A stretch of DNA of 60,648 nt from Phyllobacteriaceae bacterium Water-Bin73 (GTDB lineage: Bacteria > Pseudomonadota > Alphaproteobacteria > RS24), in assembly GCA_900197605.1 (NCBI GenBank), contig FZLQ01000001.1:1-60648 (forward strand). Direction: 5' to 3'. Both the position numbers and the translations under genes were made by a program. Under the pieces are notes generated by a model, which ran no database searches, was not told the DNA's origin, and was given only the letters and a program-made list of their open reading frames with translations. This document shows positions 24,310-46,645 of the stretch, one piece after another; the first letter of the stretch is position 1, and every line of letters starts with the position of its first letter.

Positions 24310-25938
24310 ATGAGTAGAGCCGAAGCTTTCCTGTCCGGAGCCGTGCAAATTGCCGGACCGCTTTTGCGGCGGCAGGAGCGGATTGTCGCGGTTAAGCTTC
24401 ACCCTGACGCGGTTTCCGTGGTGCAGCTTCACCCGACCCTCGATGATTGGGATTTGGACCGTTTGGTGAGTTGGTCATTGGAGAATGCGATTGGGCGTTC
24501 ACCTGTTCAAGACAATTTCAATTATCTGGCTGACCAAATTTCCGCCGCCGCCAAAGAGGCAGGTATTGACGGGGTTGATGCGGGTATCTCGATTCCACAT
24601 TCTTTGTTCGATGTGCGCATTTTGCAACTCCCCTATATGGAAGAAGCCGAGCTGGCTGAGGAAGCCGAGGAACCGGAGTTTTGGGAGGAGTTCGACCCTG
24701 AGCTGACCAATCTTGTCGGCCGCGTGGTGCGGCACCAAATCCTCTATGCCAATGAGGGCGAAGACCGCACTGATGTGATGATTGCCAGCCTGCCGGTCGG
24801 TGAGTTGGAGCGTTATCGTTCGCTGATGTTGGAGGCCAATCTCATTCCGGTGTTTGTCGAGAATGAATTATTCTCGCTGGTCAATGGCATTTACGCCCGC
24901 ATGAGCACAGATGAACGCTATAAGCCGTTTTTCGCCGTGCATTTATGCCCGGGCAATAATCAGATTGTGGTGCATTATCGCGGTCGTCTGTATATGCACA
25001 AAATCAATATCTCGGATTTTGACGAAGCCCTGCTGATGGAGCTTGAGCGCGTTGATGAGGTCGAGGGCGATTTCTGGGAGGAGGTCGCCATTCGGGTCAG
25101 CGAGCAGGTGAAGCAGGCCATTGCGTTTCTGGTCGAGACCTATGATGTGCAACGCCCGGATAAGCTGTTTCTGGTTTCCGAATATCGCGAAATTGAGAAT
25201 TTTTACTTTCTGCTGCATGAGCGGCTCGGCACGGCGCGCGTGGTTATTTATGACGCGATGGACGATGTTGAGGTGCCGAATGAGCATCAAAAATATGTCG
25301 ATTTTTTTGCCAATCCATCGATTTTTACCACGGCGATGGGGCTGGCCACGCAAGGCCTGAACGTCGAAGGGCGCAGCCTTTCTCATATGCACAGCCGCCT
25401 TATCTCGATGAACTTTCTCGAAGATGCGCCGCGTATTCGACGCAATCGCCAATTGGCGGCGGTCAATCGTATTTTATCGCTGGCCATTGTCGCGGTGATT
25501 TTATTCTCCGGCACAGTGCTGGGGGTCAACACCGTGCCGGCTTATTTGCAAACCCGCGAAGCCTCGACCCAGTATAACGCAGCCGCCAGTGCGGCGCGGG
25601 CCGAGGCATTGCGGCGGCAAGTGAATGAGAAAAAGCTGACCGAGATAAATCAGGTCATTACCGATATTCGCGCCAATTCAGCCAATCGCGGCTATGGCGT
25701 TTTCTTGTCAAAATTGCCGGCGCTTTTGCCACCGGGGGCCGAGCTGCAAAAGCTTGAAATCGACGCTAAAGACGGCGTGACAATGGCCGGTCTGGCGCTT
25801 GAGAATGAGGATATTAATCGGCTAAAGCGCAATTTGCGCACGGCCAAAATATTGCGCCGCGACCCGACAGTGGAAACCGAAAAAGACGGTGATTTTTGGC
25901 GTTTCTCCATGACACTCACCTTGTCGAGGATGCAGTAA
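24310..25938 (+). CDS. PilM-PilN fusion protein of a type IV pilus
   Basis: A 542-residue protein joining two pilus alignment-complex parts. Residues 1-380 resemble the actin-fold PilM/MshI type: ERIVAVKLHPDAVSVVQL at the start and ELERYRSLMLEANLIPVFVENE in the middle, with an acidic insert near 115-135. A single membrane helix follows at about 392-415 (ILSLAIVAVILFSGTV). Then comes a coiled coil and a periplasmic PilN-like ferredoxin domain to the end. In most systems PilM is cytoplasmic and binds the PilN tail; here both are one chain. It heads the operon with PilO-, LysM-, PilB- and PilC-like genes. The stop overlaps the next start by one base. Confidence 0.82.
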   Translation: MSRAEAFLSGAVQIAGPLLRRQERIVAVKLHPDAVSVVQLHPTLDDWDLDRLVSWSLENAIGRSPVQDNFNYLADQISAAAKEAGIDGVDAGISIPHSLFDVRILQLPYMEEAELAEEAEEPEFWEEFDPELTNLVGRVVRHQILYANEGEDRTDVMIASLPVGELERYRSLMLEANLIPVFVENELFSLVNGIYARMSTDERYKPFFAVHLCPGNNQIVVHYRGRLYMHKINISDFDEALLMELERVDEVEGDFWEEVAIRVSEQVKQAIAFLVETYDVQRPDKLFLVSEYREIENFYFLLHERLGTARVVIYDAMDDVEVPNEHQKYVDFFANPSIFTTAMGLATQGLNVEGRSLSHMHSRLISMNFLEDAPRIRRNRQLAAVNRILSLAIVAVILFSGTVLGVNTVPAYLQTREASTQYNAAASAARAEALRRQVNEKKLTEINQVITDIRANSANRGYGVFLSKLPALLPPGAELQKLEIDAKDGVTMAGLALENEDINRLKRNLRTAKILRRDPTVETEKDGDFWRFSMTLTLSRMQ

Positions 25939-27191
25939 TGTCTGAATCGACCCATCAGCCAAACCCGCAAGCCGGACCGGAAATGCCAAGCAGCGGACAG
26001 CCCTTATCGGCCGATGCACGGCGGCTCTTGGCCGAGATGTCGGGCGCGATTGAGCCGCAAAATGACGCGCTTGATATGGCGGCATTAACGCAAAATATGG
26101 CAGATGCAGATGCCCATGCAGATGCCGCCCCGGTGTTGCTGACGCCGCATGACGACACCAAAGCCCGCGCTTTTGCCGATTTGCTGGAGCATATTGACGA
26201 TAGCGACGGCACGATAGTGGTGGACGATGCCGCCGCGCTTGAAGTTGCCGAAAAATATCGCAGCGAAAAACAAGCTGCCCATACGACCTTCGATACTGAT
26301 GATTTACTGGAAGAATTTACGCCATCATCAAGCGACGCCGCCGCCAATGAGGGCGCGCAAGATGCGGTCGATGGGGGTGACGGGCAAGTGGCGCTGACTG
26401 ACGCAGAAATAGATGCGGTTTTGGGCGGCGACCCATTTGACGAAGACGGGTTCGGCGAAGATGGGTTTGAGAAAGATGAAAAACCGACCGGCCGCTTTGG
26501 CGGTTTGCTGTCGCGCTTTCGGGCCGGTGCCGGTGGGGTGACGCGGCTTATCGGCGTGCGCAATGCCGCCGCCGCCTATGACGCGCAATCGGGGGCATCG
26601 CTTTTGCCCTATACAATTATTCGCGCGATTATTCTGGTGCTGGTCGCTGCCGTGCCGCCGGCGGTCAACCTCGCCATTATTCAACCCCAAATTTCTGACA
26701 ATGGGCGCAAGCTGACGCAAATTCGCAGCTTTGAAGCGCAAATGGCCGAGAATAGAAAACTGGCTGACAGCATGGCGGTGCGGCTGTCGGCATTGGAGCA
26801 AGATGCCAAGCGGCGCATTGATAAGCTGATGCCGAATAGGGAATTGGAAAGCCTGTTCAATCGCTATGTCGCCGCTTTGCAGAAATACGATATTGAATTG
26901 CAGGGATATAATTTATCGGCAATAGATGATCGCAAAGTGATTATCGGCAATCGTGTGCAGCAGGCAAATTTGGTCGAGCTTAATCTGCAAGGGCGCTATG
27001 ATGTCTATGTCGATATTCGCAAAATCTTTGTCGATGAGTTGAAAATTGCCAGCGTATTGAAAGAGACAATGAACCCGCAAACCGGTAGCCCCAATTTGAA
27101 TATCAAGGCCAGTCTGATGGTGCCGACCAAACGCGATTATGATGCGGAATTGGACGACCCGGCGAAGAAAGCAGAGGAGGCGAAGAAGTAA
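25938..27191 (+). CDS. PilO-like inner-membrane pilus protein with a long acidic head
   Basis: A 417-residue protein. Residues 1-190 are acidic, low-complexity and probably disordered (DPFDEDGFGEDGFEKDE near 170). A membrane helix follows at about 230-250 (IIRAIILVLVAAVPPAV), then a coiled coil, then a PilO/MshJ-like ferredoxin fold (about 310-400). Position after the PilM-PilN fusion supports the PilO role: pairing with the PilN part to bridge the inner membrane. PilO normally has only about 25 cytoplasmic residues, so the long acidic head is a clear deviation. ATG overlaps the upstream TAA. Confidence 0.72.
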   Translation: MSESTHQPNPQAGPEMPSSGQPLSADARRLLAEMSGAIEPQNDALDMAALTQNMADADAHADAAPVLLTPHDDTKARAFADLLEHIDDSDGTIVVDDAAALEVAEKYRSEKQAAHTTFDTDDLLEEFTPSSSDAAANEGAQDAVDGGDGQVALTDAEIDAVLGGDPFDEDGFGEDGFEKDEKPTGRFGGLLSRFRAGAGGVTRLIGVRNAAAAYDAQSGASLLPYTIIRAIILVLVAAVPPAVNLAIIQPQISDNGRKLTQIRSFEAQMAENRKLADSMAVRLSALEQDAKRRIDKLMPNRELESLFNRYVAALQKYDIELQGYNLSAIDDRKVIIGNRVQQANLVELNLQGRYDVYVDIRKIFVDELKIASVLKETMNPQTGSPNLNIKASLMVPTKRDYDAELDDPAKKAEEAKK

Positions 27192-28795
27192 TGCGATTAG
27201 TGGTCCCCGCCTTCTCTCGCCTGATTGCGGCGTTGATGGTCTCATTCGCGATAAGCGCCAATGGCGCGGCGCGCGCGCAAGTTGAGCAAGCTGTGCAAGA
27301 CGAAAAGCCCAAACCCGCCAAGCAAGATATGGCCGGTGCCGATCCGCAAGACCCGTTTGTGCGCGGTCTGAAGCGATTGGATGAGCGCTTGCGCCTGCAA
27401 CGCGAAGCTGAAGAATTGGCGCGCAAGGCGCTGCAATTACAACAGGCTACGGAAGGCGAAACGGCTGATGGCGAGGTGATTGTCGAGGAGGAAGTGATTA
27501 TTCCGGCTCCGATATCCGACCCTGACTTTTTTACCGCTTTCGCCGCGCGCAAATATCGCCTCGACGGATTGGTGTTGTCCAAGCCGCAAACCCAGCCGGT
27601 TATCCATGTGCTCAATGAAGTTGAAAAACCGAAATCCGGCCAGCTTTTCTGGTCGGGGCGCGAACGGCGTTGGGTGTATCAGCGCAATAAGGATGAAACC
27701 CTGTCGTCAATCGCCCGCAAGCTGGTGATGCAAGTTGACGATATGCTGGCCATGAATAATGCCTTGCGCGAAAGCCAGCTTGCTGACCCGATGCGGTTTT
27801 ATGTCAGTCCGCGTGATAATGGGCCGCTGACCCATATTGTTTTGCGGAGCGACACGATTGCCAAGCTGGCCAAAATTTATGACACAGATGTGCCGCGACT
27901 GCGTGTGCGGAATGATTTGGGCGCCGACGATAAGCTGGTTTTGGGCCGACGTTTTCTTATTCGCGAGAAAGCCATTAATGACCGGCTGGCGCGTTTGGCC
28001 GTGCCGGCGCCGGTTAAGATTGACGATAATCATCTGACCAAAGCACGGTTGCCTTATGCGCGGCTTGGGCAATTTGCCGATGAGACACAAGCCATGCGCG
28101 GCGCGCGCGAATTTTTCGCCAAATATTATCAGTTTATGGATAGCGATATTTCCTTGCGGCGCGAGAGCGACGATAAGCATAAAGGCAAAATGTTCTACAA
28201 TATGGATATCGGCCCGCTGCGCTCTGAGCGTCATGGCGAGGCCTATTGCGCCTTGTTCCGTAAAGACGATTTGCCTTGTCTAGTGGTTAATCGGGTGCCC
28301 GGACCCGAGCGCGTGCGAAATTTTGACAGCCACGCTATCATCTCGGTCAGCCCTTATGTTTATTTTGACGGTGATGATGAGCTGGATAGCGGGAACACTG
28401 ATGTGTTACGCCTTACCAAGCTTGAACATTTCCTCACCGAAGGCCAAGAGCTCGGCAATGCCGAAGGTACAATTGCCAAAATTACTAATGACCGTATTAT
28501 GCTGACCGATGCCAATGGATATCTGCTGCCCCTGCCGTTAAACTGGATACCGGAAATTGACCCTGAAGAAAAACGCCGTGCCGCCGAGGCGGCTCGTAAA
28601 GCTGCGCTTGATAAAGCAGCCAAAGCTGCCGGTGCGGCGGCTGATGCGGCAGGCAGTATTGACCCCAATGTGCCAGAGGCAGAGGACACCGCGCTGGGGC
28701 AAAGGCTGATGAAGGGCGAGGCCGCGCGGCGGGAAGGCTCACAAAACTTCATTAAGAAATTGGCCGAGAAACCGAAAAAGATTGACGAAAAATAA
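27191..28795 (+). CDS. Periplasmic protein with two LysM-like domains, in the position of PilP
   Basis: A 534-residue secreted protein. A signal peptide spans about residues 1-29 (LIAALMVSFAISANGAARA). Two LysM-like repeats follow: one around NKDETLSSIARKL at 175-215, one around LRSDTIAKLAKIY at 230-275. A further folded region with cysteines (AYCALFRKDDLPCLV near 355) has no family I recognise, and the C-terminus is an alanine/lysine-rich helical tail. The PilP lipoprotein normally found here is absent. By binding cell-wall peptidoglycan the LysM domains could anchor the pilus channel; this is inference. It is coupled to the upstream gene by a one-base overlap. Confidence 0.65.
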   Translation: MRLVVPAFSRLIAALMVSFAISANGAARAQVEQAVQDEKPKPAKQDMAGADPQDPFVRGLKRLDERLRLQREAEELARKALQLQQATEGETADGEVIVEEEVIIPAPISDPDFFTAFAARKYRLDGLVLSKPQTQPVIHVLNEVEKPKSGQLFWSGRERRWVYQRNKDETLSSIARKLVMQVDDMLAMNNALRESQLADPMRFYVSPRDNGPLTHIVLRSDTIAKLAKIYDTDVPRLRVRNDLGADDKLVLGRRFLIREKAINDRLARLAVPAPVKIDDNHLTKARLPYARLGQFADETQAMRGAREFFAKYYQFMDSDISLRRESDDKHKGKMFYNMDIGPLRSERHGEAYCALFRKDDLPCLVVNRVPGPERVRNFDSHAIISVSPYVYFDGDDELDSGNTDVLRLTKLEHFLTEGQELGNAEGTIAKITNDRIMLTDANGYLLPLPLNWIPEIDPEEKRRAAEAARKAALDKAAKAAGAAADAAGSIDPNVPEAEDTALGQRLMKGEAARREGSQNFIKKLAEKPKKIDEK

Positions 28796-28838
28796 GCATG
28801 CGGCGAGTTTGGCGACATATGTATGAGGGCGTTTGGGC

Positions 28839-30596
28839 ATGACGGAATATACAAAGGACGTTGCGGATCGCGTTTTGCGTATTCTTCAAGCCAGCGGTCA
28901 GGTCGATGAGACCAAAATGACCGAGATTATGGTGCAGGCGGAATCGCGCTCATCGCGCGCGCTGGCTCTGTTGATGGAAACCAAGCCTGACCCGGACGAC
29001 CCCGGCAAGCCGCCTGCCGCAATGGTTGAAGAAGAGCTGGTGGTGAATATCTTGTCGCGGGCTTATGCCTTGCGGCGCAAAAATCTGGCGCCCAGTGATG
29101 TTGCCAAAGATGCGCTGACCTCTGTGCCCAAAGATATGATTGACCGCGAGCATATTCTGCCCTTTGCCCGCGAAGGACGGTTCTTGCGGGTGGCGACCGT
29201 TGACCCGACCAAGGCGACTTTGGCCAATCAGATTAAGGCGCTGAGCAATCAAAATGTTGAGTTCTTTCTCATCAAGCCCAGCGAGTTCGCCGCCTGTATG
29301 GGCCATGAAGATGTGCAGGCCAGTCTCGGGCAAAAGAAGAAAGAGGAAGCCGCGGCCGCTCCGGCGGCAGAGGCGCCGCGCCCTGCGCCGCGCCGACGCT
29401 CGGCCTATGATATTGACGACCCGACTGTGGTTATCAAATTCGTCGATGATATTTTGGAGCAATCCGTTACCACCGATACCAGCGATATTCACATTGAGCC
29501 TTATCGCGAAACGGCGCGCATCAGATTTCGTATAAATGGCGTGCTGCAGGCGCAAGACCAGTTTTCCGATTTTCTGTTTCATAATTATTTGGCCGTCATT
29601 ACCCGTCTCAAAATTTTGGCCGATTGCGATATTGCCGAAAAGCGTTTGCCGCAAGATGGCGCAATTACCTTTAAGGCGCCTGATGGCGAAGACGTCGATA
29701 CGCGCTTTAATGTGCTGCCGGGCAAAAATGGCGAACGCATTTGTATTCGTCTGCTGAAGGGCGATCCGTCCCTGTCGATTGAGAAAATCGGTTTCAAAGA
29801 GGCGGATTTGAAAAAACTCATCGACGCCATTACCGCGCCGCAAGGCATGGTACTGGTCACCGGCCCGACAGGCTCGGGCAAAACCACAACGCTTTACGGT
29901 GCGCTGCAATATATTAACGACCCCGGCACAAACATTATGACTGCCGAAGATCCGGTGGAATATTACCTTGAGGGGCTGGGGCAAACACAGGCCAATGAAA
30001 AAATCGGTCTGTCATTCTCGTCAATTTTGCGGGCGTTTCTGCGCCAAGACCCAGAGGTTATTCTGGTCGGTGAGATTCGTGACCAAGAGACAGTTGAGAT
30101 TGCCGTGAAGGCGGCGCTGACCGGTCACTTGCTGTTATCCACCTTGCACACTAACGATGCCATTTCGACCATTTCGCGGCTGCTCAATATGGGCGTGCCG
30201 AGCTTTATGATTTCCGCCGCCTTGTCGCTGGTGGTGGCGCAACGTTTGGCGCGTAAAAATTGTCCTGATTGCCTTGTGCCTGATGAGAATGCGACACCGG
30301 CGGCGCTTGAATATATCGGCTTTACAGCAGAAGAAGTGCAGGCCATGCAGCCGCGCAAAGGTAGCGGCTGCGCCAGTTGTGAGGGCACAGGCTATAAAGG
30401 CCGACAGGGTATTTATGAGGTCTTGCGGGTGACACCGGAAGTTGAAGAAACGATTTTGAAACAAGCCCAAGCGCCGGAGATTTTGGAAGCGGCGCGGCTT
30501 GATAATTTCATGACCATGCAAGAGGTCGGTCGCGATTACATTCGGGACGGAGTTTTGTGTCTGGAAGAGTTTACGCGCGTGCTGGTGGTCAATTAA
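28839..30596 (+). CDS. pilB: Type IV pilus extension ATPase (PilB/MshE/GspE family)
   Basis: A 585-residue secretion-type ATPase that powers pilus assembly. An MshEN-like N-terminal domain (about 1-150) is followed by the N2 and catalytic domains. Walker A is GPTGSGKTT at about 342-350, the aspartate box is AEDPVE, Walker B is ILVGEIRD, and the zinc-binding cysteines CPDC (about 474-477) and CASC (about 511-514) are present, the pattern of assembly rather than retraction ATPases. The ATG at 28839 is preferred over the TTG two codons earlier. It is followed by the platform protein gene after 9 bases. Confidence 0.92.
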   Translation: MTEYTKDVADRVLRILQASGQVDETKMTEIMVQAESRSSRALALLMETKPDPDDPGKPPAAMVEEELVVNILSRAYALRRKNLAPSDVAKDALTSVPKDMIDREHILPFAREGRFLRVATVDPTKATLANQIKALSNQNVEFFLIKPSEFAACMGHEDVQASLGQKKKEEAAAAPAAEAPRPAPRRRSAYDIDDPTVVIKFVDDILEQSVTTDTSDIHIEPYRETARIRFRINGVLQAQDQFSDFLFHNYLAVITRLKILADCDIAEKRLPQDGAITFKAPDGEDVDTRFNVLPGKNGERICIRLLKGDPSLSIEKIGFKEADLKKLIDAITAPQGMVLVTGPTGSGKTTTLYGALQYINDPGTNIMTAEDPVEYYLEGLGQTQANEKIGLSFSSILRAFLRQDPEVILVGEIRDQETVEIAVKAALTGHLLLSTLHTNDAISTISRLLNMGVPSFMISAALSLVVAQRLARKNCPDCLVPDENATPAALEYIGFTAEEVQAMQPRKGSGCASCEGTGYKGRQGIYEVLRVTPEVEETILKQAQAPEILEAARLDNFMTMQEVGRDYIRDGVLCLEEFTRVLVVN

Positions 30597-30605
30597 GGTT
30601 TCGTC

Positions 30606-31838
30606 ATGACATTTTATGCATACGCCGGTCTGCAAGGCAAAAAAAAGGTAAGGGGGCAAGTCGAAGCCAATAGCATGGCGCGCGCGCGCTCCGCCCTGCG
30701 CCAGCAGCGCATCAAGGTCAAAAAAATCAAAGAGGTGAAAGACAAGAAAGCCGGGGCGCTGGATATTCAAATCACCTGGGGGCCTTTCGGTTCAATACCG
30801 TCAAAAGAAATTCTGATGTTCACCAAAAAACTATCCACCATGATACGCGCCGGCCTGCCGATTTTGGACGGGCTGGTTATGGTGGCGGGGCAAACCAAAA
30901 ACCCGAATATGAAACGGGTCACGCAAAAAATGATTTCGACCCTCAATGATGGTAAACCGCTCTCGGCTGCTTTCCGCGAACATGAACGCCATTTTGACAA
31001 TGTCTATCGCAATATGATTGAGGCCGGTGAAGTGTCCGGCATGCTCGATAAATTTATCGACAAGCTGGTGGAAATTCTTGAGAAGCAGCAAAAGATTAAA
31101 GCAGGTATAAAATCGGCCATGTTCTATCCGGTCACATTGATAACTGTCTCGCTGGGCATTTCGCTGTTTATGCTGACCAATGTGGTGCCAACATTCCAAG
31201 AAATGTATGAGGGAATGGGCATTGCGCTGCCCGGCCCGACCCAGGCCATTGTCGATGCCAGCGAATGGATTGCCGATATTCGCAATGTGTTGGGCGTGTT
31301 TGCCGTGATTTTCGGCACGATTACCTTTCACAGTCTGATGAGCAAATATGTGCTGCCCTATCGTTATTTATGGCACATGCTGCTGCTGAAATTGCCACTC
31401 TTTGGCGGCATTATCATGATGGCCGTGGTGGCGCGTTCTTCATTGCTGATGGCCAATTTATTCGCTGCCGGTGTCAGCGTGTTGGAAACCCTAACCGTCG
31501 CCTCCACCGTTACCACCAATACATTATTCATGAATGCGTTTGACCGCGTCAAACGCGATGTTATGACGGGGGCGGAGCTGTCGTCATTATTCGCCAAAGA
31601 AAAAGTATTTCCAATTGAGCTGTCCCAACTTATCGCGGTCGGGGAGCGCACCGGTAATATGGAAGAAATGCTGAACTCGATTGCCAATTATTATGAAGAA
31701 GAATTCGACGCGCTGGTCGAGGGTCTCTCAACCGTTATCGAACCGGTGATGATTGTGTTTGTCGGCGGCCTTATCGGCATGATGGTGGTCGCGCTTTATC
31801 TGCCCATCTTCTCAGCCGGTGACTTGGCAGGCGGTTAA
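30606..31838 (+). CDS. pilC: Type IV pilus inner-membrane platform protein (PilC/MshG/GspF family)
   Basis: A 410-residue platform protein with the two GspF domains. The first has FTKKLSTMIRAGLPILDGL and the membrane segment MFYPVTLITVSLGISLFML, the second has ELSQLIAVGERTGNMEEML with a final membrane segment VIEPVMIVFVGGLIGMMVV. The N-terminus is strongly basic (KKKVRGQVEANS), as usual. It works with the PilB ATPase just upstream. The gene ends 4 bases into a convergent small gene. Confidence 0.93.
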   Translation: MTFYAYAGLQGKKKVRGQVEANSMARARSALRQQRIKVKKIKEVKDKKAGALDIQITWGPFGSIPSKEILMFTKKLSTMIRAGLPILDGLVMVAGQTKNPNMKRVTQKMISTLNDGKPLSAAFREHERHFDNVYRNMIEAGEVSGMLDKFIDKLVEILEKQQKIKAGIKSAMFYPVTLITVSLGISLFMLTNVVPTFQEMYEGMGIALPGPTQAIVDASEWIADIRNVLGVFAVIFGTITFHSLMSKYVLPYRYLWHMLLLKLPLFGGIIMMAVVARSSLLMANLFAAGVSVLETLTVASTVTTNTLFMNAFDRVKRDVMTGAELSSLFAKEKVFPIELSQLIAVGERTGNMEEMLNSIANYYEEEFDALVEGLSTVIEPVMIVFVGGLIGMMVVALYLPIFSAGDLAGG

Positions 31839-34115: not shown

Positions 34116-36093
34116 GCTCGGCTTTCTGCCCGGCTCGGCAAAGGCGCAATTAACCGCGCTGCTGCTGGCATTAGCCGCCGCACCGGTGGCGTTGATGATG
34201 GCGCTGTTTACCGATATGCGCGCTGTCTTGCTGTGGCTATTAATGTGGCCGGTGACGCTGATGCCGCGCCGATGGTGGCGCACCGCTTTTTTGCTGGCAT
34301 TGATCCCCGCCATGCTGGCCTTATTGGCGCAATTGGCGCAACCGCCGCAAGCCCCGTATTTCATGCTGGTGGTGTTGGTGCTGTCGGTTTGCGAGCAAGT
34401 GACGGAAGACGGTCGTCCCGGCGCATTTAATCTGATTGGCGTTATTTTTCCGGCGCTGTGCGTCATGGTGTTATCGACCAATGTCTTTGTCTTCTTGCTG
34501 CTTCTGGTCGCGGTGATTTTCTATGCCGGTGTTTATACGCTGCGGATAAATGATATGCCGCTTTCGGGTTTGCGTATTCGCTTATTGCCGATTGTGTTGG
34601 CGCTGTCGGGTTCTTTGTTTTTTGCCATTGCTGCTTTCATTTTGATGCCGCGCATTAATTCGGCGGCGATCCCGGGGCTGGTCGCGCCGCAAGCCTCCAG
34701 CGGTGTCGGTGAGCGTCTCGATATGGGGCGTTTTTCCAGCGTGATATTAAACGGCGATGATGCGTTCCGGGCGTTTGTCGATAAGCCTCTGCCGCAAAAT
34801 GATCTGTATTGGCGGGGGGCTGTGGTGGGCTTGGTGGGTGGCGCAAGCTGGACTCGCGACCCGCGCCGCGATGCACAAATCGGCGCGCTGCCCTTTGATA
34901 AAAGATTGGGGCGGGTTGATACGACATTGCGTTATCGCATTCGCCATGCGCGCCAAGCCCCCGATTGGCATCCGGTTTTGGGAATCGCGCTGGCGGCGCG
35001 GATTGATGATAATGCACGGCTCAATCGCTATGGCGAATATGTAAAGCGCGGCCTCAGCAGCGTGCTGGACCAGCAAGTGCTGGTGACCTCAAGCCTTGAT
35101 GACCCGTATCGCGCCACTGTGCCAACCAGTTTGCAAATTTTCGGTCAGCCCAAATTGGCCGCTTGGGCGCGGGAAAATTTCGCGCAAAGCGGGTCGCGGC
35201 AAGAGTTCATAGACCGCCTATTGGCGCACTTCGCCTCCGGTGCCTATCAATATAGCTTGCGGCCCGACCAGCTTGGCGGTACGCCGGCAGGGCGGTTGGA
35301 CAGTTTCTTTTTTGATACCAAAAACGGCTATTGCAGCCATTACGCCATGGCGATGGCAACGGCGTTACGCGCCGCGGGTATTCCGGCCCATGTTGTAGTC
35401 GGCTATCACGGCGGCGAGTGGAACGGCTTTGGGCGGTATTACCGTATTCGACAATCCGATGCCCACGCTTGGGTGGAGGCTGAAATTAATCCCGGCGAAT
35501 GGTTGCGCCTCGACCCGACGCAAGTTGTGCCCAGCGCGATGACCTACTTTCGCGCACGACAAGCCGAGGCCAAAAATTTCGAGACATTGCTCGGCTGGAA
35601 CGGCGTCATGCGGCGCGGCTTGCAGCGTGTCGATGCTTTTGTGGTGCGTTTGAACGGCGACATTGTGCTTTATGATGAAGAGGCGCGACGCGAATTATTA
35701 TCCGGCACTGTGCTGGGACGGCTTATTTCTTTTGTTAGTTTTTGGCTGTTGGCGAGCTTGGCCTTCATCGCCCCTCTATTTTTATGGCGTTGGTGGGTGC
35801 GGCGCGACCCGATCGAGCGGGTCGACCAACAATTTCTGGCTTTAGCCCGCAAAGATGGGCTGGCGCGCGCGGCTCATGAGGGGCGCATGAATTTCGCCCA
35901 GCGATGGGCCGAGGCGACGCCCCTATTGGCCGAACCGGTGCAGCAATTTGCCGATTTATTTTGCCGCCTTACTTATGGTGCGCCGCTCGCACCAGATGCT
36001 GCGGCGCAGGCGAGAAACGAGTTGAAAAAGCGGCTGCAACTCATTAGAGCGGCACGGCGCGACATGCGGTACGGGCGGGCGATTAAAGCGTGA
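34093..36093 (+). CDS. Transglutaminase-like membrane protein (TgpA type)
   Basis: A 666-residue protein with about six N-terminal membrane segments (residues 15-190), a periplasmic transglutaminase-like domain and one late membrane segment (LISFVSFWLLASLAFIAPLF, about 545). Catalytic residues are readable: cysteine in KNGYCSHYAMAMATALRA, histidine in SDAHAWVEAEI and aspartate in WLRLDPTQ. It completes the MoxR/DUF58/transglutaminase trio. A thiol protease or cross-linking role on envelope proteins is known for relatives but not shown here. Its 3-prime end overlaps the convergent phosphatase gene by 11 bases. Confidence 0.88.
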   Translation: MLWRGHSKLGFLPGSAKAQLTALLLALAAAPVALMMALFTDMRAVLLWLLMWPVTLMPRRWWRTAFLLALIPAMLALLAQLAQPPQAPYFMLVVLVLSVCEQVTEDGRPGAFNLIGVIFPALCVMVLSTNVFVFLLLLVAVIFYAGVYTLRINDMPLSGLRIRLLPIVLALSGSLFFAIAAFILMPRINSAAIPGLVAPQASSGVGERLDMGRFSSVILNGDDAFRAFVDKPLPQNDLYWRGAVVGLVGGASWTRDPRRDAQIGALPFDKRLGRVDTTLRYRIRHARQAPDWHPVLGIALAARIDDNARLNRYGEYVKRGLSSVLDQQVLVTSSLDDPYRATVPTSLQIFGQPKLAAWARENFAQSGSRQEFIDRLLAHFASGAYQYSLRPDQLGGTPAGRLDSFFFDTKNGYCSHYAMAMATALRAAGIPAHVVVGYHGGEWNGFGRYYRIRQSDAHAWVEAEINPGEWLRLDPTQVVPSAMTYFRARQAEAKNFETLLGWNGVMRRGLQRVDAFVVRLNGDIVLYDEEARRELLSGTVLGRLISFVSFWLLASLAFIAPLFLWRWWVRRDPIERVDQQFLALARKDGLARAAHEGRMNFAQRWAEATPLLAEPVQQFADLFCRLTYGAPLAPDAAAQARNELKKRLQLIRAARRDMRYGRAIKA

Positions 36094-37762
36094 AAGTTAA
36101 ATCAAGGCGATTGCGGCCATCATCATGCCACCATCGGGTTTCATCTGCGACTTCCTGAATTAAATGTGTGCCCAGACCGCCCTCACGAATATCGCCGAGA
36201 TCGCGCGGCTTTACCTTATCTAAGTCAATCAGCGGCGCCGTATCGGTGATGCTGATGTGCAATTTTTCCGCCATAATATAACCGCCAATTTCAATGCGCC
36301 CGCTCATGTTATCAGGAAAGGCATGGCGAATGATATTCTGTGTCGCCTCATCAACGGCGAGGCAAACATTCATCGCAATGCTGCGCGCCGGTGTGTCGCC
36401 CAATTGGGTTTCTATCTCGCGGCGTAGGCGACGCAGTTCCGGTACTTCATTGGTGACTGAGATGGTGAATAATAATTGCTCACCGCTCAGTGTCGGTTCG
36501 ACAATGCCGGTCTGCAAACTGCCGGCGGTTTGTTTGCGCGGTGCGCAGCCCAGTCCCAATAGGGTTAAATCATCTGACAGCCGGTCGGCTTTCTGTCGTA
36601 CCACGTCAACAGTATGAACAATTTGATCGGCAATGGCGAAGCCCATTTGTTCCGATAAAATGGCCGCCAATTTGGCCGCGCCCAACATGGTGCCGCCAAT
36701 CTCGGCTTCGGTAATGCCATCGGAATAGCAAAACAGCCGCGCTGCGCTGAGGTCGTGATGTTCAACAACCATGTCGTCGGCCTCGAAATCGAGAATACCA
36801 AGCGGTTGCAGGCTTGCTTCGACATAAGAAAAACGGCCCGTCGCATCGACAATTAGCCCCGGCTCATGACCAGCATTGCAGCATTGCATGACACCACTTT
36901 CAGGTTCATACCAGCCGATAATTGCCGTCACAAACATACCGTTAAAAGCGGTTTCCACCAGTTCGGCATTAATCCGCGCCGCCAAAAGATTGACCGGCGG
37001 ATTATCGCGGCTGAGCGAGCGAAACAGGCTGTGCGTTTTGGCCATTACGAGAGCGGCATCTGTGCCCTTGCCGGACACATCGGCCATGCAGAAATAAATC
37101 TTATCGTCCCGTTCGACATAATCATAAAGGTCACCCGAGACACCTTTTTTCGGCACATTTACGCCATGAATAAAAGCAAAATCTGCACTTGGAAAAAGGC
37201 TTTCCTGCACACGCGAGGCCATGCGTAAATCGCGCTGAAAATTATCAGCCTCGACCATGCGCGTAGCCATTTGCGAGTTGGCCAAAGCCAATGCCGCGCT
37301 TTTGCCGTAAACCGAAACCAGCGCAGCATCATCATCGCTGAACAGTGCGCCATCGCGGCGGTTGATTAGTTGCAATGCGCCAAATTGTTTGCCATGCCCC
37401 GATACCGGCACACAAATCATGGATTTTGTTTCGAAACCGGTTTTGGCATCAACCGCGCCGGTAAAGTCCGGGTCATTGGCGGTGTCACGCACATAGCGCA
37501 TTTCATCGCTTTTGGTAACCGCACCAACAATGCCCTGACTGGCTGGTATTTCAAGGCCGGTAATATCGATCGGGCCGATACAGGCCTCGCACCGCAGCGT
37601 ATCGCCATCTTCTTGCAGTACAAAAAAGCTCGCTGCCTCTGCGTCAATTTCTTCGCGAATATAATCAAGGCCTTCATAAAGTGTTTGCGCCATGTCAGAG
37701 CTTGAGGCAAACGCTGACATCATGCGGTAAACAATATCGAGCTGACTACTGCTTTCCGGCAT
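36083..37762 (-). CDS. GAF-PP2C (SpoIIE/RsbU-like) phosphatase with C-terminal RsbW-like ATPase domain
   Basis: About 559 residues from the ATG at 37762, 4 bases after the STAS stop. A GAF sensor (about 20-170) is followed by a PP2C phosphatase with SGDLYDY, DVSGKGTDAAL, NAGHEPGL and YSDGITEAE, then an anti-sigma-kinase type ATPase with AVDEATQNIIRHAF and EGGLGTHLI. Phosphatase and kinase activities against one STAS partner could thus be joined in a single chain, as in HsbR-type regulators. A longer reading from 37909 would add a QS-repeat head lying over the STAS tail and is rejected. No cognate sigma factor is seen in the window. Confidence 0.87.
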   Translation of the reverse strand: MPESSSQLDIVYRMMSAFASSSDMAQTLYEGLDYIREEIDAEAASFFVLQEDGDTLRCEACIGPIDITGLEIPASQGIVGAVTKSDEMRYVRDTANDPDFTGAVDAKTGFETKSMICVPVSGHGKQFGALQLINRRDGALFSDDDAALVSVYGKSAALALANSQMATRMVEADNFQRDLRMASRVQESLFPSADFAFIHGVNVPKKGVSGDLYDYVERDDKIYFCMADVSGKGTDAALVMAKTHSLFRSLSRDNPPVNLLAARINAELVETAFNGMFVTAIIGWYEPESGVMQCCNAGHEPGLIVDATGRFSYVEASLQPLGILDFEADDMVVEHHDLSAARLFCYSDGITEAEIGGTMLGAAKLAAILSEQMGFAIADQIVHTVDVVRQKADRLSDDLTLLGLGCAPRKQTAGSLQTGIVEPTLSGEQLLFTISVTNEVPELRRLRREIETQLGDTPARSIAMNVCLAVDEATQNIIRHAFPDNMSGRIEIGGYIMAEKLHISITDTAPLIDLDKVKPRDLGDIREGGLGTHLIQEVADETRWWHDDGRNRLDLTFTL

Positions 37763-37766
37763 TTTA

Positions 37767-38453
<687 letters not shown>

Positions 38454-38538
38454 TAAAGAACCCAAAAAAACCTAAGAAAATAAAAGCGTTTTAACGATAT
38501 ACAACATCAAAAAACTTTTGAAAAGCGGTTGCAAATCT

Positions 38539-38610: not shown

Positions 38611-39186
38611 ATGGAATTTCGAAGTAAAAGCGAAAAAGGTTTTAGCCTTATTGAGCTATTAGTTGTTGTCGCAATCATTGGCGTATTGGCGGCCGTGGGT
38701 GTAGTCGGATACCAGGGCTACATCGATAGTACTAAAAAGTCAGTTACAGAAAATAATGCAAAAGCGGTCCATCAATGGCTGCTAAATGCTAAAACCATAC
38801 GATCTGCTGGTATTGATGTCGACCCTAGTGAGTGTAACATTGCAAATACTCCATCCGCTACGTCTGCAGACGATGCCGCAGCGGCCACTGGTTGCTTGGG
38901 CGGTTTGGGTGCTGAAGATCATCCGTTTGAGACGTTCAAAAACCCCTACACCCAGTCTCGTACCGGGTCAGTTGCGGTGCAAGCAGTGTCTAGCGATGTA
39001 GATATTGCTGATGACGGTACGGCCGCTTGTTCGCTTTTGGGTGCTGCCGCTGGTGATATCGTTGATGGAGATGTTGTTGTTCGTGTTAAAGATACGGTGG
39101 CGCACATTGATGTTTACTATTGCTCAAAAGTTGATGACAACAGTGGTATTCTGACAAAAATGTCAAATACTATTGCCAATTTTTGA
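38611..39186 (+). CDS. pilA: Type IV major pilin
   Basis: A 191-residue prepilin. The leader is 10 residues ending in lysine-glycine, followed by FSLIELLVVVAIIGVLAA, with the conserved glutamate at mature position 5. The C-terminal globular part has four cysteines (SEC, TGC, AAC, YYC), enough for two disulfides, more than the single disulfide of most type IVa pilins. AAAGGAGAG precedes the ATG and a strong terminator follows, so it is probably a monocistronic, highly expressed gene. Base composition looks lower in GC than its neighbours. Processing by the PilD at 40752-41531 is expected. Confidence 0.93.
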   Translation: MEFRSKSEKGFSLIELLVVVAIIGVLAAVGVVGYQGYIDSTKKSVTENNAKAVHQWLLNAKTIRSAGIDVDPSECNIANTPSATSADDAAAATGCLGGLGAEDHPFETFKNPYTQSRTGSVAVQAVSSDVDIADDGTAACSLLGAAAGDIVDGDVVVRVKDTVAHIDVYYCSKVDDNSGILTKMSNTIANF

Positions 39187-39605: not shown

Positions 39606-40643
39606 TTACTCCCCATCGACAACAACTAGTCCTTGTTTTTCTAACTCATCAAGGTACTTCTCCATCGTAATCATGCCGTATTGCGCGCCGGTTTGCATGA
39701 CTGTGGCAATTTGGGGAATCTTGTCTTCACGAATGAGGTTTTTAATCGCCGGCACGCAAACCATGACCTCAAATGCGCCGATGCGGCCACCGCTTTTGCG
39801 TTTCATCAATTGCTGCGTCATCACTAATTGTAAAGATGATGCTACCATTGAGCGGGCTTGGGGTTGTTCTTCAGCCGGAAAAGCATCAATGATGCGGTTA
39901 ATTGTTTCGGCTGCGCCGGAAGTATGCAACGTGCCGAAAACCAAATGGCCGGTCTCGGCGGCGGTCAGGGCCAATGAAATGGTTTCATAATCGCGCATCT
40001 CGCCGAGCAATAAAATATCTGGGTCTTCGCGCAATGCGCCTTTCAACGCCGACGCAAAGCTCATCGTATCGCGGCCCACTTCGCGCTGGGAGATAATTGA
40101 TTTAATTTCCGAGTGAACAAATTCCACCGGGTCCTCAATGGTGATGATGTGCTCGGCGCGTTCGCGATTGATCTTGTTAATCATCGAGGCCAGCGAAGTT
40201 GATTTACCCGAGCCGGTCGGGCCGGTGACCAAAACCAGCCCCTTTTTTTCGCCCAGCACGTTATGCACGGCGGCGGGCAAACCAAGTTGGTCAATGTTCG
40301 GCACTTCGGTCACAATCGTTCGGCAAATCAAACCCCAGCCATTAAGCGTGTGATAGCCATTTGCCCTAAAGCGCGCGCCGTTCACCGTAATCGCAAAGTC
40401 GATATCTTTGGTCTCGACAAAGCCGTCATAAAGCTCGTCGTCCAATTCGTGCCGAAATATACCGTCGAGCATACCATGGGTAATCGGGCAATCTTGCATG
40501 ATTTGAATTTCGCCATTAACCCGAATTGCCAGCGGGCTGCCCGACCGCATATGAAAATCCGATATGCGATATTCCTTCGGCAACTCGTCAAGATAACGAT
40601 AAACGGGATTATCTGTGGGAATGGGTTTTTCGGCTTGAGACAT
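39606..40643 (-). CDS. pilT: Type IV pilus retraction ATPase PilT
   Basis: A 345-residue PilT/PilU family ATPase. Walker A is GPTGSGKST at 141-149, the aspartate box is IEDPVEF, Walker B is LLLGEMRD, and the C-terminal AIKNLIREDKIPQI matches the AIRNLIRE retraction motif. It lacks the zinc cysteines of the PilB type and the long N-terminus, as expected. It stands alone on the minus strand, divergent from pilD, with only one PilT-type gene in the window. Its presence argues for a dynamic, retractable pilus rather than a secretion system. Confidence 0.93.
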   Translation of the reverse strand: MSQAEKPIPTDNPVYRYLDELPKEYRISDFHMRSGSPLAIRVNGEIQIMQDCPITHGMLDGIFRHELDDELYDGFVETKDIDFAITVNGARFRANGYHTLNGWGLICRTIVTEVPNIDQLGLPAAVHNVLGEKKGLVLVTGPTGSGKSTSLASMINKINRERAEHIITIEDPVEFVHSEIKSIISQREVGRDTMSFASALKGALREDPDILLLGEMRDYETISLALTAAETGHLVFGTLHTSGAAETINRIIDAFPAEEQPQARSMVASSLQLVMTQQLMKRKSGGRIGAFEVMVCVPAIKNLIREDKIPQIATVMQTGAQYGMITMEKYLDELEKQGLVVVDGE

Positions 40644-40751
40644 TTTCAGCTTTAACTCTACTCGACAACTCGTAACCTGTTTATACTGGCGGTTCTAAAA
40701 TTTGGCCAGAGCAGATGTGCTGACCGGCCATCACTTTTGCGGGTAAACTTC

Positions 40752-41531
40752 ATGGCCGATAGCTTTTATTTAGTGTCTTTAGTCGCGCTTATCGGCGCCT
40801 GCCTCGGCAGTTTTGCCAATGTTGCGGCCTTACGGACCTTGCGCGGCGAGGATTGGGTGCGGCAGCCCTCCGCCTGTTTTTATTGCGGCAAACGACTCAG
40901 TTTTTTTTCCAATCTGCCGATATTCGGTTATCTGCGCCATGGCGGGCGCAGCAATTGTTGCGGTCAAAAACTGCCCCGGCGTTATTTATTCGTTGAACTG
41001 GCGATGGCGGCATTGCTGGTGTTGGCCTTCACCCAACTCAACCTGCCGGTATTTTTCAGTTTTGTGCCGTTTATGATTCTGATGGTAGTGATTTTTCTGA
41101 CCGATATGGACGCCTTCATTATTCCCGATTGGGCGAGTTTGGGCGGTTTGGCTTTGGGCTTGGGGTTGGCACTTTTTCAGGCCCCGGGCTTGCCGATTAT
41201 GACTGATGCGGTGCTGGGCGGCATTTGCGGCTTTGCACTCATTTATTTTATCAATGCGGCCTATAAATTATTGCGCGGACGAGATGGTATGGGCTTTGGC
41301 GATGTCAAGCTGATGGCTATGCTGGGGGTTTGGTTGGGGCCATTGGCCTTGATGCCGATTCTGTTTGCCGCCAGCATAAGCGGCGCGTCTTTAGGTATTT
41401 TGGCAATTTTGGCGGCGCAGGGACAAAATGCCGGTAAGCAAGCGGCGCAACTGCCATTTGGCTGTTTTCTGACCCCCATGGCGCTTATCTGGTTGTTTTT
41501 TGCGCCACAACTACTGTCTGCCGCGCAATAA
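40752..41531 (+). CDS. pilD: Prepilin peptidase PilD
   Basis: A 259-residue membrane aspartic peptidase and N-methyltransferase. The catalytic aspartates are in FLTDMDAFIIPD and the GxGDxK-type FGDVKLM (near residue 180). The cytoplasmic loop holds cysteines CFYCGKR and NCCGQKL, so the zinc-type loop is present. It should cleave and methylate the major and minor pilins of this locus. The ATG at 40752 is preferred over the TTG at 40737. It is divergent from pilT with a 108-base gap. Confidence 0.92.
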   Translation: MADSFYLVSLVALIGACLGSFANVAALRTLRGEDWVRQPSACFYCGKRLSFFSNLPIFGYLRHGGRSNCCGQKLPRRYLFVELAMAALLVLAFTQLNLPVFFSFVPFMILMVVIFLTDMDAFIIPDWASLGGLALGLGLALFQAPGLPIMTDAVLGGICGFALIYFINAAYKLLRGRDGMGFGDVKLMAMLGVWLGPLALMPILFAASISGASLGILAILAAQGQNAGKQAAQLPFGCFLTPMALIWLFFAPQLLSAAQ

Positions 41532-41615: not shown

Positions 41616-42014
41616 ATGAACACGTTGCGGACCGAAGATGATTACAAACGCGCCATTAAGGATTTATTGGGGCAGGCTGAAACCAGTCTTGAGACAGATC
41701 TGGCAAACCGTGACGGCGACCAGCAAGCCGCCATGTCAAACCGTGACATTCAGCATTTTATGCGCGGGCTGGATTTGGCCATTACTGAGGAAGCGACGAT
41801 TGCGCTCCGCGCCGAGTTTTTGCGTTATTCCAGCGTCTTCGATACCAAGCGCTCGCAGGAGGCAATTAAGCTGGCAGTGGCGCAAGTTATTCGCCCGATG
41901 ATGGAAGAATGGATTAATCGTTATATGGCCGATATTGCGCGCGAGGTGATTACCGAGGCGATTGGCAAAATTACCAAAGTGCGCGCGACCGGTAATTTGC
42001 GGCGTCCGAAATAG
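41616..42014 (+). CDS. Small helical protein with a PopZ/DUF2497-like C-terminal segment
   Basis: A 132-residue, predicted all-helical cytoplasmic protein. The segment from about residue 84 to 121 (IKLAVAQVIRPMMEEWINRY then MADIAREVITEAIGKIT) has the spacing of the PopZ C-terminal signature, roughly LRPMLKxWLDxNLPxLVExLVxxEI. The N-terminus is acidic and less ordered. PopZ forms polar hubs in alphaproteobacteria. AGGATAAAGC precedes the ATG, and the secretin gene follows after about 48 bases, so a role placing the pilus at the pole is conceivable. The match is by eye and moderate. Confidence 0.5.
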   Translation: MNTLRTEDDYKRAIKDLLGQAETSLETDLANRDGDQQAAMSNRDIQHFMRGLDLAITEEATIALRAEFLRYSSVFDTKRSQEAIKLAVAQVIRPMMEEWINRYMADIAREVITEAIGKITKVRATGNLRRPK

Positions 42015-45000: not shown

Positions 45001-45131
45001 GTACTTTCCTCGGCACCAGTTCCGACGCCAAATCATCGCAAGAAATGGTGATATTCTTGGCCCCTGAAGTGATTACGCCTAAGGCCGGTGAAATGCCGGT
45101 CAATTCAGCGCGCTATTATGACCTCAACTAG
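42063..45131 (+). CDS. Pilus secretin (PilQ/MshL type), outer-membrane lipoprotein with long inserted segments
   Basis: A 1022-residue secretin. A short basic head and hydrophobic segment end in VYGC, a plausible lipobox (C26). An N0-type domain spans about 265-340 (LSVNLSGLRLPTALKSLA). A charged coiled-coil stretch follows to about 545. A KH-like N1 domain begins at FTVYNSEGAAS (about 551) and resumes at RRPTVTAVGDTIIISG (about 708), with a charged insert of about 120 residues between. The secretin core runs 740-1010, ending in GDVIVLAGLYTEDN and MVIFLAPEVI. The TTG at 42063 has GGAG 8 bases upstream; the ATG at 42093 would leave a very short signal. PilP- and PilF-like partners are not seen. 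Confidence 0.88.
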   Translation: MRRVTVPEKVMRLTIVGVLCVNVYGCGTRTGRDLSISGAVQRFDDRRAAVRAEQAALDGIDTNRAANLKPLPPRRELLQVRVPGKIEIDEIADGVVAQSMTEMSLQDLKLPNTGAGKGKLVSSKRSLESQLKAIDKRTETIRRQRRDVLASYNIEKLLLDQMDMRHSKSRDLTLQGFKIANEKLLQGFIADLEEQYAQAEPTTIIGLSDNNELGALALFGRNELARKDEYVSLEKSFLFVGNDVATGVSLGRMDDLSDEVGSRSLSVNLSGLRLPTALKSLARSINMQVYLSPAVNAAPQKVSLDISRADALDIFDILIDNYGLAMAYDRKMDVARFYTRAEFNERVDDAVAAAELHNRRARNLRKISSLENDTAALRQIYQNYFQHPDEAGRVRSLTNDAIIEDDHSPAVAAAIVTFKEAALVNERTLDELDLETATERQEQATKTQTARFALEDVDQALAMLTTERGSKQKLLDEVVVRLTSANQTAKMASLSGDASDDAMQQMNDGADRNDNGNQPAFLNVPDADELRGRVVRDANLQTSEPIYTEKFTVYNSEGAASCGGDSADRVNEIQTELSSYFEQLYPDAMIAAEKASEERAEADRLAREREEREAEARARLIAEQGVPVFDPLQEALASTSVSDITSDIAGEVAGGVASEVAPTIQAGATDKPTAPQATNAPAEAAGSEDEDAAATAPSTIFLTDSAFRRPTVTAVGDTIIISGFRHDIELVSELIESFDKPDKQVLVEVFMVNVAKNWQRQLQSKLQNAVRTAAKTDADIAALPDTVTGQLPGLVEVRDNALFGVQGALKFADRAAAANSFTLNNFRLGLAWTIDFMESNSLGRKVSSPTILALDGCEALIEKSETRYLPVTATSAPVVTPGGQTVPGESTTTYEPRQATLSLNVTPVINPLNDHVRLKIAFNDDFFVTADANSDKIQSRINTEFIAAPGDVIVLAGLYTEDNSKTRNGLPGMTGIPLLGTFLGTSSDAKSSQEMVIFLAPEVITPKAGEMPVNSARYYDLN

Positions 45132-45546
45132 ACGCGGCGAAAGCGGCTTTTCACTGGTCGAGGTGATGGTCGCGCTCACCGTCATCACCACCGGCATTAT
45201 CGGCACCATTTCCATGGTCAGCGCCAATCGCGCCATCATGGAGACAAGCTGGGCGCACGCGCGCATGGGCATGATTGCAGATGGCGTGATGAATGAATTG
45301 GCGGTTCAGTTTCAACGCGATGGCGTTTTGCCGGTCACCGCCGCCTATGATTTTGAAGGCGACCCCGATGCGCTCGGACTGGCCATTTTATTTACCGATA
45401 ATGGATATAGTCCGGCAGCATCTACCCTCGCGGTCAGCGCCGGTGCCAGTCCGATCAGCTATATTTCCACCCTGACATTGCTCAGCCCCAGTGGGCGGCG
45501 CATGACACGCACGCGCAATTTTTACAAGAAATTAAAAACGCCGTAA
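45118..45546 (+). CDS. Minor pilin-like protein (PilV/MshD/GspI type)
   Basis: A 142-residue prepilin. After a short basic leader (MTSTRRGESG) comes FSLVEVMVALTVITTGIIG with glutamate at mature position 5. The downstream part is poorly conserved, as is typical of minor pilins. The ATG at 45118 overlaps the secretin stop by 14 bases, so the two are coupled. It probably initiates or tips the pilus with the convergent minor pilins. Confidence 0.85.
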   Translation: MTSTRRGESGFSLVEVMVALTVITTGIIGTISMVSANRAIMETSWAHARMGMIADGVMNELAVQFQRDGVLPVTAAYDFEGDPDALGLAILFTDNGYSPAASTLAVSAGASPISYISTLTLLSPSGRRMTRTRNFYKKLKTP

Positions 45547-45558
45547 GCCGAAAAAATC

Positions 45559-46065
45559 TTAATAGCGCCGTGTGCGGGTGAGGGTCAGCACCGAGCCGGT
45601 CACTTGATAAAGGGCGAAAGCGGCCCGCGTGCCTTTGGCATCATAGCCGCAACCATAGAGCCGATAGGTCGCGCCATCGCGCTTCACAAAAAACCGCCGC
45701 GCCCTGTCGCCGACACTGGCGCGCTCTGAGGCGAAAAAATCCGTCGGGGCGGCTTCATGCGAGCCGACGCAGTTGTCGCGGTCGCCGGTTACGTTGGTGT
45801 CGCTGGCCGAGCTGGCGGCGACGGGCCAATTATTATCGAGCGCAAATTCTTCCGATAATCTGTGCCAAGCCAAACCCAGAGCCGCTTCGGCATCATTCAG
45901 CGCAGCGCGCCGATCTGTTTGGCGGGCATCGTTCAAAGAGGCGATATTGAGCTTGGTGCCTACAGAACCGACCAGCACGGAAATCAAGACGACAAAGCCA
46001 ATGGCGAGATAAAGCGCAAAGCCCTGCTCGCCGCTTGCCGATTTTTGGTGATTGAGGCTACGCAT
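45559..46065 (-). CDS. Minor pilin-like protein (PilX/MshP type)
   Basis: A 168-residue protein. A basic leader ends in EQG and is followed by FALYLAIGFVVLISVLVGSVG. As in PilX and MshP, there is no glutamate at mature position 5. A conserved-looking ARQTDRRAALNDAEAALGLAWHR helix follows (pattern RAALNDAE). Two cysteines (NCVG and YGCGY) may pair. A GGGGGG run precedes the ATG. It is the last gene of the minus-strand set TM protein, PilW-like, PilX-like. Confidence 0.8.
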   Translation of the reverse strand: MRSLNHQKSASGEQGFALYLAIGFVVLISVLVGSVGTKLNIASLNDARQTDRRAALNDAEAALGLAWHRLSEEFALDNNWPVAASSASDTNVTGDRDNCVGSHEAAPTDFFASERASVGDRARRFFVKRDGATYRLYGCGYDAKGTRAAFALYQVTGSVLTLTRTRRY

Positions 46066-46084: not shown

Positions 46085-46645
46085 CTAATACAAGGTCATT
46101 GCGAACATATTGAAGCGCCGGCGCACTGTCGTCGCGGTAATTTCATTTGTGCCGGGCACGATTTTTTCCAACTGCAAGCGTATGTCGAGCGAGTAATCGC
46201 TGCCATCATTATCAGAAAAAGTCAGTGTACGAATAAGCGGCGCGCTGATATCTACCCAGCCATTTTCATTCGGCGCAACCATGCAGCCGAAATTATTCTC
46301 AACGCGCTCTTGCAGTCTTTTATCGCGCAGTCGAAATTCTCTTTGCTGACGATTGGTGGCGTCGAGGTCATAGCAAAATTTAATATGCGAGCTGCTGACA
46401 ATTTCATAAGCCTTTTTTTCCGGCAATGGCGGGGTGGCTTGTTTATGACCGGCCAAGGCAGCCCAGGGTTCAATCAGTTCGAATAATTGCTTGCTTGTGA
46501 CCAGCAATTCGGTTTGCGAATTCATCCGCTCGCTTTGGGTGTTCAGATTGGTTATCACGGCGATAAGCGCGGCTGAAATCACCCCGATAATGGCCAGTGT
46601 TGTGGTTAATTCAAGAAGCGTGAAACCGCTTTGCGCGCGTGGCAT
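46085..46645 (-). CDS. Minor pilin-like protein (PilW/MshO/GspJ type)
   Basis: A 186-residue prepilin with a very short leader (MPRAQSG) then FTLLELTTTLAIIGVISAALI, glutamate at mature position 5. The remainder includes two cysteines (FCYDL and FGCMV) and a beta-rich C-terminus. Its ATG is 3 bases after the stop of the upstream membrane protein, and the PilX-like gene follows. Confidence 0.82.
   Translation of the reverse strand: MPRAQSGFTLLELTTTLAIIGVISAALIAVITNLNTQSERMNSQTELLVTSKQLFELIEPWAALAGHKQATPPLPEKKAYEIVSSSHIKFCYDLDATNRQQREFRLRDKRLQERVENNFGCMVAPNENGWVDISAPLIRTLTFSDNDGSDYSLDIRLQLEKIVPGTNEITATTVRRRFNMFAMTLY

Follow-up and report, generated by a model that had tools for sequence, protein, structure and literature searches.

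The type IVa pilus proteins PilM and PilN of Pseudomonas aeruginosa, Thermus thermophilus and Myxococcus xanthus are two separate polypeptides, and the loci of such two-protein systems carry PilO, PilP-like, PilB, PilC, PilT and secretin genes as neighbours. Both domain folds, the N-terminal tail motif of PilN and this gene neighbourhood recur in the stretch described here, positions 1 to 60,648 of contig FZLQ01000001.1 from the marine alphaproteobacterium Phyllobacteriaceae bacterium Water-Bin73 (assembly GCA_900197605.1; hereafter the window). Its gene pilMN, however, encodes a single chain that has lost nucleotide-site residues and bears a tail of the form NFLED in place of NLLPxR. A similar arrangement was engineered in PDB entry 5eou (P. 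aeruginosa PilM:PilN1-12), in which PilM is followed by the PilN tail as in the window protein, although that construct contains the tail of PilN only and was solved with ATP bound.

Natural fusions of this kind are already on record. GspL of the type II secretion system (T2SS), also known as PulL or EpsL, is a published fusion that, like PilMN, unites an actin-like part in the cytoplasm, a single membrane helix and a ferredoxin-like part in the periplasm. Fused PilM-PilN within a type IV pilus has been reported in Clostridioides difficile (PMC6916266) and, according to a preprint, in most pilus clusters of Campylobacterota (PMC11870540); these organisms belong to different phyla and are likened to the window protein by their published descriptions. 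BfpC of the type IVb bundle-forming pilus has a PilM-like N-terminal part (PMC4471445), a likeness that is again one of description. The fusion as such is not new; what is added here is its presence in alphaproteobacterial pili and its missing nucleotide site. No description of either was found in the open-access literature searched, which is weak evidence of novelty. PilMN is likely a bitopic, GspL-like stator protein of a type IVa pilus that has kept its PilT motor, with a PilM-PilN contact that is fixed and probably independent of nucleotide. The interest lies in the absence of the nucleotide site beside a retained PilT in a real and conserved PilMN fusion.

Architecture and distribution of PilMN

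The pilMN open reading frame (ORF) starts with ATG and encodes 542 residues with no internal stops. Its PilN half is recognised by Pfam PF05137 (residues 465-537, E 2e-6, 28.2 bits over a cut-off of 22.8), which matches 22/22 fused members, and a profile built from the 22 homologues retrieves both PilM structures (3jc8, E 1.5e-22; also 5eou, 5eox and 2ych) and a PilN structure (2.5e-4) from the PDB. A PF11104 search of the source genome returned a sole PilM_2 match on another contig (G000:C73:5744-5866) and did not report the window protein, for which profile alignments were used instead. An AlphaFold2 model of the full chain (mean predicted local distance difference test, pLDDT, 75.6; predicted TM-score 0.63) contains a block at residues ~24-350 (pLDDT ~74-92), a helix at 373-452 and an alpha/beta domain at 461-536. 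Its top fold match in the PDB by Foldseek is 5eou_B (E 3e-18, TM-score on the target, TMt, 0.76); the ten best matches are all PilM, followed by FtsA, with GspL lower (TMt 0.48-0.61). The first-pass annotation of this DNA had placed PilM, a membrane helix and a PilN domain in one frame and contrasted it with two-protein pili. The ORF, the profiles and the model bear this out, the contrast is right, and in the model the N-terminal part folds as PilM.

The same annotation saw no gap between the two halves. The frame is indeed continuous, but a low-confidence linker (pLDDT ~50) intervenes: from the conserved GLA that ends PilM to the Asn of the PilN motif there are 21 residues in the window protein and 17 in the distant relative L074. 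The corresponding spacing in 5eou is 12 residues, so the 17-21 residues of the natural fusions are compatible in length with docking of the tail in cis. The tail itself follows the PilM domain and precedes the membrane helix, reading SMNFLED in the window protein and INLLPNR in relative L018. N368 and L370 are nearly invariant among the fused proteins (alignment A2); compared with the INLLPxR type, the window protein keeps the Asn and the hydrophobic residues and has lost Pro and Arg.

Because the source genome is a 157-contig assembly, the frame might be thought an assembly or frame artefact joining two genes. The chance of this is practically nil, since independent genomes already refute it. 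Besides the window, 15 genomes of its family carry the same frame, with 42-98% identity (one copy, in G003, being split over two contigs). Across 385 genomes of the class, a survey turned up additional fused proteins in families f23, f98 and f109, four of them from single-contig genomes, with both halves conserved. Two more (L074 and L075) came from a set of genome contigs, and named carriers include the PS1-clade metagenome-assembled genome MED-G50 and the isolate IMCC14465.

A PilN domain is present in 49/385 class genomes, and in each case the open frame around it is no shorter than 345 residues, where frames are counted from stop to stop and thus overestimate protein length. Most of these 49 frames measure ~350-390 residues and look GspL-like; four that were scanned have both PilM_2 and PilN matches. 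Elsewhere in the phylum most listed PilN frames are ~190-240 residues long; long PilN frames in other classes were considered as fusions, and in 8/8 examined PilM and PilN proved to be encoded separately, in different frames. The 385 alphaproteobacterial genomes showed no stand-alone PilN; two long alphaproteobacterial frames (L150 and L151) are candidate fusions. In alphaproteobacterial pili the fused form seems to be the norm.

One complete genome from the same genus has a pilMN reduced to codons 1-52 and followed by pilA (L152, G010:C2:5000-24000; L019). PilO, PilP-like and PilC genes were not found at this locus, nor was a secretin in the genome. PilA, PilD and a PopZ-like gene are retained along with a PilT that looks frame-shifted, and a recent loss of the pilus machine is likely.

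The nucleotide site of the PilM half

For comparison, the 22 fused proteins were placed in one alignment with 29 separate PilM proteins, drawn from the 30 top-scoring PilN loci in the rest of the phylum. The GG of the adenosine motif is found in 0/22 fused and 29/29 separate proteins. At the phosphate-1 loop, Asp occurs in 1/21 fused versus 27/28 separate sequences and Lys in none of 21 versus 26 of 28 (the other two have Arg), while the phosphate-2 Gly is kept in 2/22 versus 29/29. The fused sequences are mutually related, so these counts are not independent events, though they span at least four families. The phosphate-2 Asp is uninformative, being variable among separate PilM as well (15/29). 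Judged by motif position, the T. thermophilus sequence being outside the alignment, the phosphate-1 Lys probably corresponds to T. thermophilus K26, which is required for ATP binding by PilM (PMC6325625).

The first-pass annotation had held that the fusion fixes a supposedly dynamic, ATP-linked contact and that the nucleotide site deserved inspection. The contact is fixed. All three actin-fold motifs of the site are degraded, which probably leaves the fusion no ATP-linked contact to fix, and the ATP link of the PilM-PilN contact looks to be gone. A PilM domain free of nucleotide would plausibly still function, given that T. thermophilus PilM K26A bound no ATP yet bound the motor PilF and, with PilN, stimulated it (PMC6325625).

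It is quite unlikely that, as the first-pass annotation implied, the fused PilM half still binds a nucleotide that regulates its cis interaction with the PilN tail. The retained actin-like fold, the partly kept tail motif and the f23 relatives, which preserve the phosphate-2 Gly and, in L018, the phosphate-1 Asp (L080 is truncated there), all speak for such binding, whereas the alteration of all three motifs, including the position aligned with the ATP-essential Lys, and the lack of GG from every fused copy speak against it.

Within the window's family the residues that took the place of the motifs are in turn conserved, with K29, H31, P32 and S36 invariant across a 14-sequence alignment that extends down to 30% identity. 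The phosphate-1 loop reads K-x-H-P in that family and in the distant L074 and L076 (KLHN in L075), and the family uniformly has H-L-C-P-G at the phosphate-2 loop. There is some small chance that the ATP pocket was rebuilt rather than merely lost, so as to accept another ligand or keep the PilN tail permanently held, and that the stator of a retractile pilus is switched by a signal other than ATP or not at all.

Assignment and proposed role of PilMN

The window contains a seemingly complete type IVa pilus set of PilB, PilC, PilD, pilins, secretin, PilM/N/O and PilT, with PilP-like recognised by a short motif. Most pilMN-bearing genomes of the family have a PilT match over its cut-off. Distant loci, assigned by gene size, order and a few family scans, repeat PilMN, PilP-like, PilB and PilC, and those of sufficient length also show a PilT close by. 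In f23, f109, L074 and L075, PilMN is followed by PilO; in the f98 loci L077, L078 and L079 no PilO was seen between PilMN and the LysM-PilP-like gene, and PilMN has a longer C-terminus.

Since GspL structures appear among the fold matches, PilMN could instead be the GspL of a T2SS or of a T2SS-pilus hybrid. This is very unlikely, as PilM structures match better, family scans of the window protein found no T2SSL, GspL_C or TIGR01709 match, and the window genome has a single secretin. The isolate IMCC14465 (G013) is informative in this respect. It encodes a T2SS whose GspC, D, E, G, K, L, M and N are confirmed by family models, its GspL scoring 172 bits with TIGR01709 (cut-off 65), and the fused PilMN ~500 kb away, and profile comparison detected no similarity between that PilMN and GspL. 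Coexistence with a canonical T2SS that has its own GspL argues that PilMN is not GspL. PilMN is also larger (542 residues versus 351 for IMCC14465 GspL), nearer PilM in sequence and fold, and associated with a pilus locus that also encodes PilT.

MshI is a PilM/PilN-like protein, for which no supporting paper was found in the literature searched. The MshEN domain on PilB might point to a mannose-sensitive haemagglutinin (MSHA)-type pilus with an MshI-like protein, which, judged by the secretin and PilT, is nonetheless highly improbable because the secretin scores PilQ (114 bits) over MshL (74), with GspD in between (110), each under its own cut-off. Moreover, T2SS and MSHA are both reported to have arisen on loss of PilT (PMC10191384), whereas the window has PilT.

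The analysis computed the single frame, domain identities, fold, conservation, neighbourhood, residue loss and the presence of a genuine GspL alongside PilMN in a relative. From these, PilMN as a stator protein can be pictured as follows. The PilM half, probably a fixed scaffold, would serve as a cytoplasmic socket onto which the motors PilB and PilT dock. The membrane helix, together with the coiled coil, would span the inner membrane, and the PilN half would pair with periplasmic PilO, much as GspL partners GspM in the T2SS. Both halves being one chain, PilM cannot come away from PilN, and their tail contact is probably untuned by ATP because the PilM pocket is degraded. ATP-driven movement would then come solely from PilB and PilT.

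Several points weigh against this proposal. The PilM half falls short of the cut-offs of its families (NCBIfam TIGR01175, residues 24-347, E 1.3e-5, 24.4 bits against 133; Pfam PilM_2, E 3e-4, 20.2 bits against 27); the best-scoring fused member reaches E 3e-22 with PilM_2, and the window half is, by its profile matches, a divergent PilM. The model draws on 14 sequences, with low confidence in the linker and coiled coil. Loss of motif residues is no proof of loss of binding, and the separate PilM proteins, coming from the strongest PilN loci, are biased towards typical systems. Placement among type IVa pili is based on profile scores and on PilT being present. Motor docking, PilO pairing, the absence of ATP binding and pilus function itself are predictions.

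The locus amounts to a natural experiment, in which PilM and PilN are permanently joined, the retraction ATPase is kept and the ATP-site residues are absent. Extension and retraction of these pili would mean that the cycle needs neither the dissociation of PilM from PilN nor an exchange of nucleotide on PilM. An equivalent fusion exists in GspL, whose machine is said to be without PilT, and the window case separates fusion from loss of retraction.

Neighbouring genes of the locus

The features of pilMN and of the surrounding locus are collected in the table.

Table. Features of pilMN and the pilus locus (window positions)
Feature	Position	Strand	Evidence
pilMN, fused PilM-PilN	24310..25938	+	ORF, family profiles, AlphaFold2 model, relatives
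PilM-like actin-fold cytoplasmic domain, residues ~24-350	24379..25359	+	TIGR01175 24-347; Foldseek 5eou_B TMt 0.76, 2ych 0.75
Former phosphate-1 loop K29-LHPDAV-S36, replacing D-I-S/G-S-x-S-V-K	24394..24417	+	Asp and Lys counts, fused versus separate
Former phosphate-2 loop H211-LCPG, replacing D-I/V-G-A	24940..24954	+	Gly counts, fused versus separate
Former adenosine motif S290-E291, replacing GG	25177..25182	+	GG counts, fused versus separate
Linker, PilM domain to PilN tail	25366..25404	+	Low-confidence segment 354-360; length variable at linker
Retained PilN N-terminal tail SMNFLED, residues ~366-372 (cf. INLLPxR)	25405..25425	+	Profile alignment with INLLP of 5eou_A
Single transmembrane helix, residues 388-406, Arg-rich stretch directly before	25471..25527	+	19-residue hydropathy 2.57
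PilN periplasmic ferredoxin-like domain, residues 461-536	25690..25917	+	PF05137 465-537; secondary structure of model
PilO, ~200-residue probably disordered N-terminal extension	25938..27191	+	AlphaFold model matches 3jc8_Oa, 2rjz_A; low confidence
LysM protein with PilP-like C-terminal motif	27191..28795	+	Pfam LysM; hhalign prob 94.7, 42 columns
PilB extension ATPase (MshEN + T2SSE)	28833..30596	+	Nearer PDB PilB (393 bits) than GspE (311)
PilC platform protein	30606..31838	+	T2SSF E 1e-55
SpoIIE-type phosphatase and STAS protein beside pilA	36083-38465		Similar-looking genes in distant f109 locus, L076 17466-19001
PilA-like pilin	38611..39186	+	N_methyl
PilT/PilU-family retraction ATPase	39606..40643	-	TIGR01420 413.9 bits, cut-off 319.1
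PilD prepilin peptidase	40737..41531	+	A24_N_bact, Peptidase_A24
PopZ-family match, weak, between pilD and secretin gene	41616-42014		
Secretin (PilQ-like), 1022 aa	42063..45131	+	Secretin E 7e-27
Minor pilin, PilV-like	45088-45546	+	N_methyl; TIGR02523 weak
PilX-like candidate	45559-46065	-	Position and N-terminus only
Minor pilin	46085-46645	-	N_methyl

The ATG of PilO overlaps the stop of pilMN (TAATG). Profile comparison of this candidate with Pfam-recognised PilO gave a probability of only 14, and the structure model (mean pLDDT 56; 3jc8_Oa, E 2.7e-6; 2rjz_A, E 7e-4) is more decisive. Its N-terminal extension presumably lies on the cytoplasmic side. For the PilP candidate, a whole-protein comparison matched the LysM region only; the PilP-like match is a short motif obtained from a hand-chosen 85-column slice and is thus weaker than its E-value implies. 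LysM is joined to a PilP-like C-terminus both in the window's family and in f98 (L077 7902-9170), a fusion suggesting that the bridge from inner membrane to secretin is anchored to peptidoglycan.

The PopZ-like gene is possibly linked to polar placement of the machine, and the SpoIIE-type phosphatase and STAS protein could form a partner-switch regulator of the pilus.
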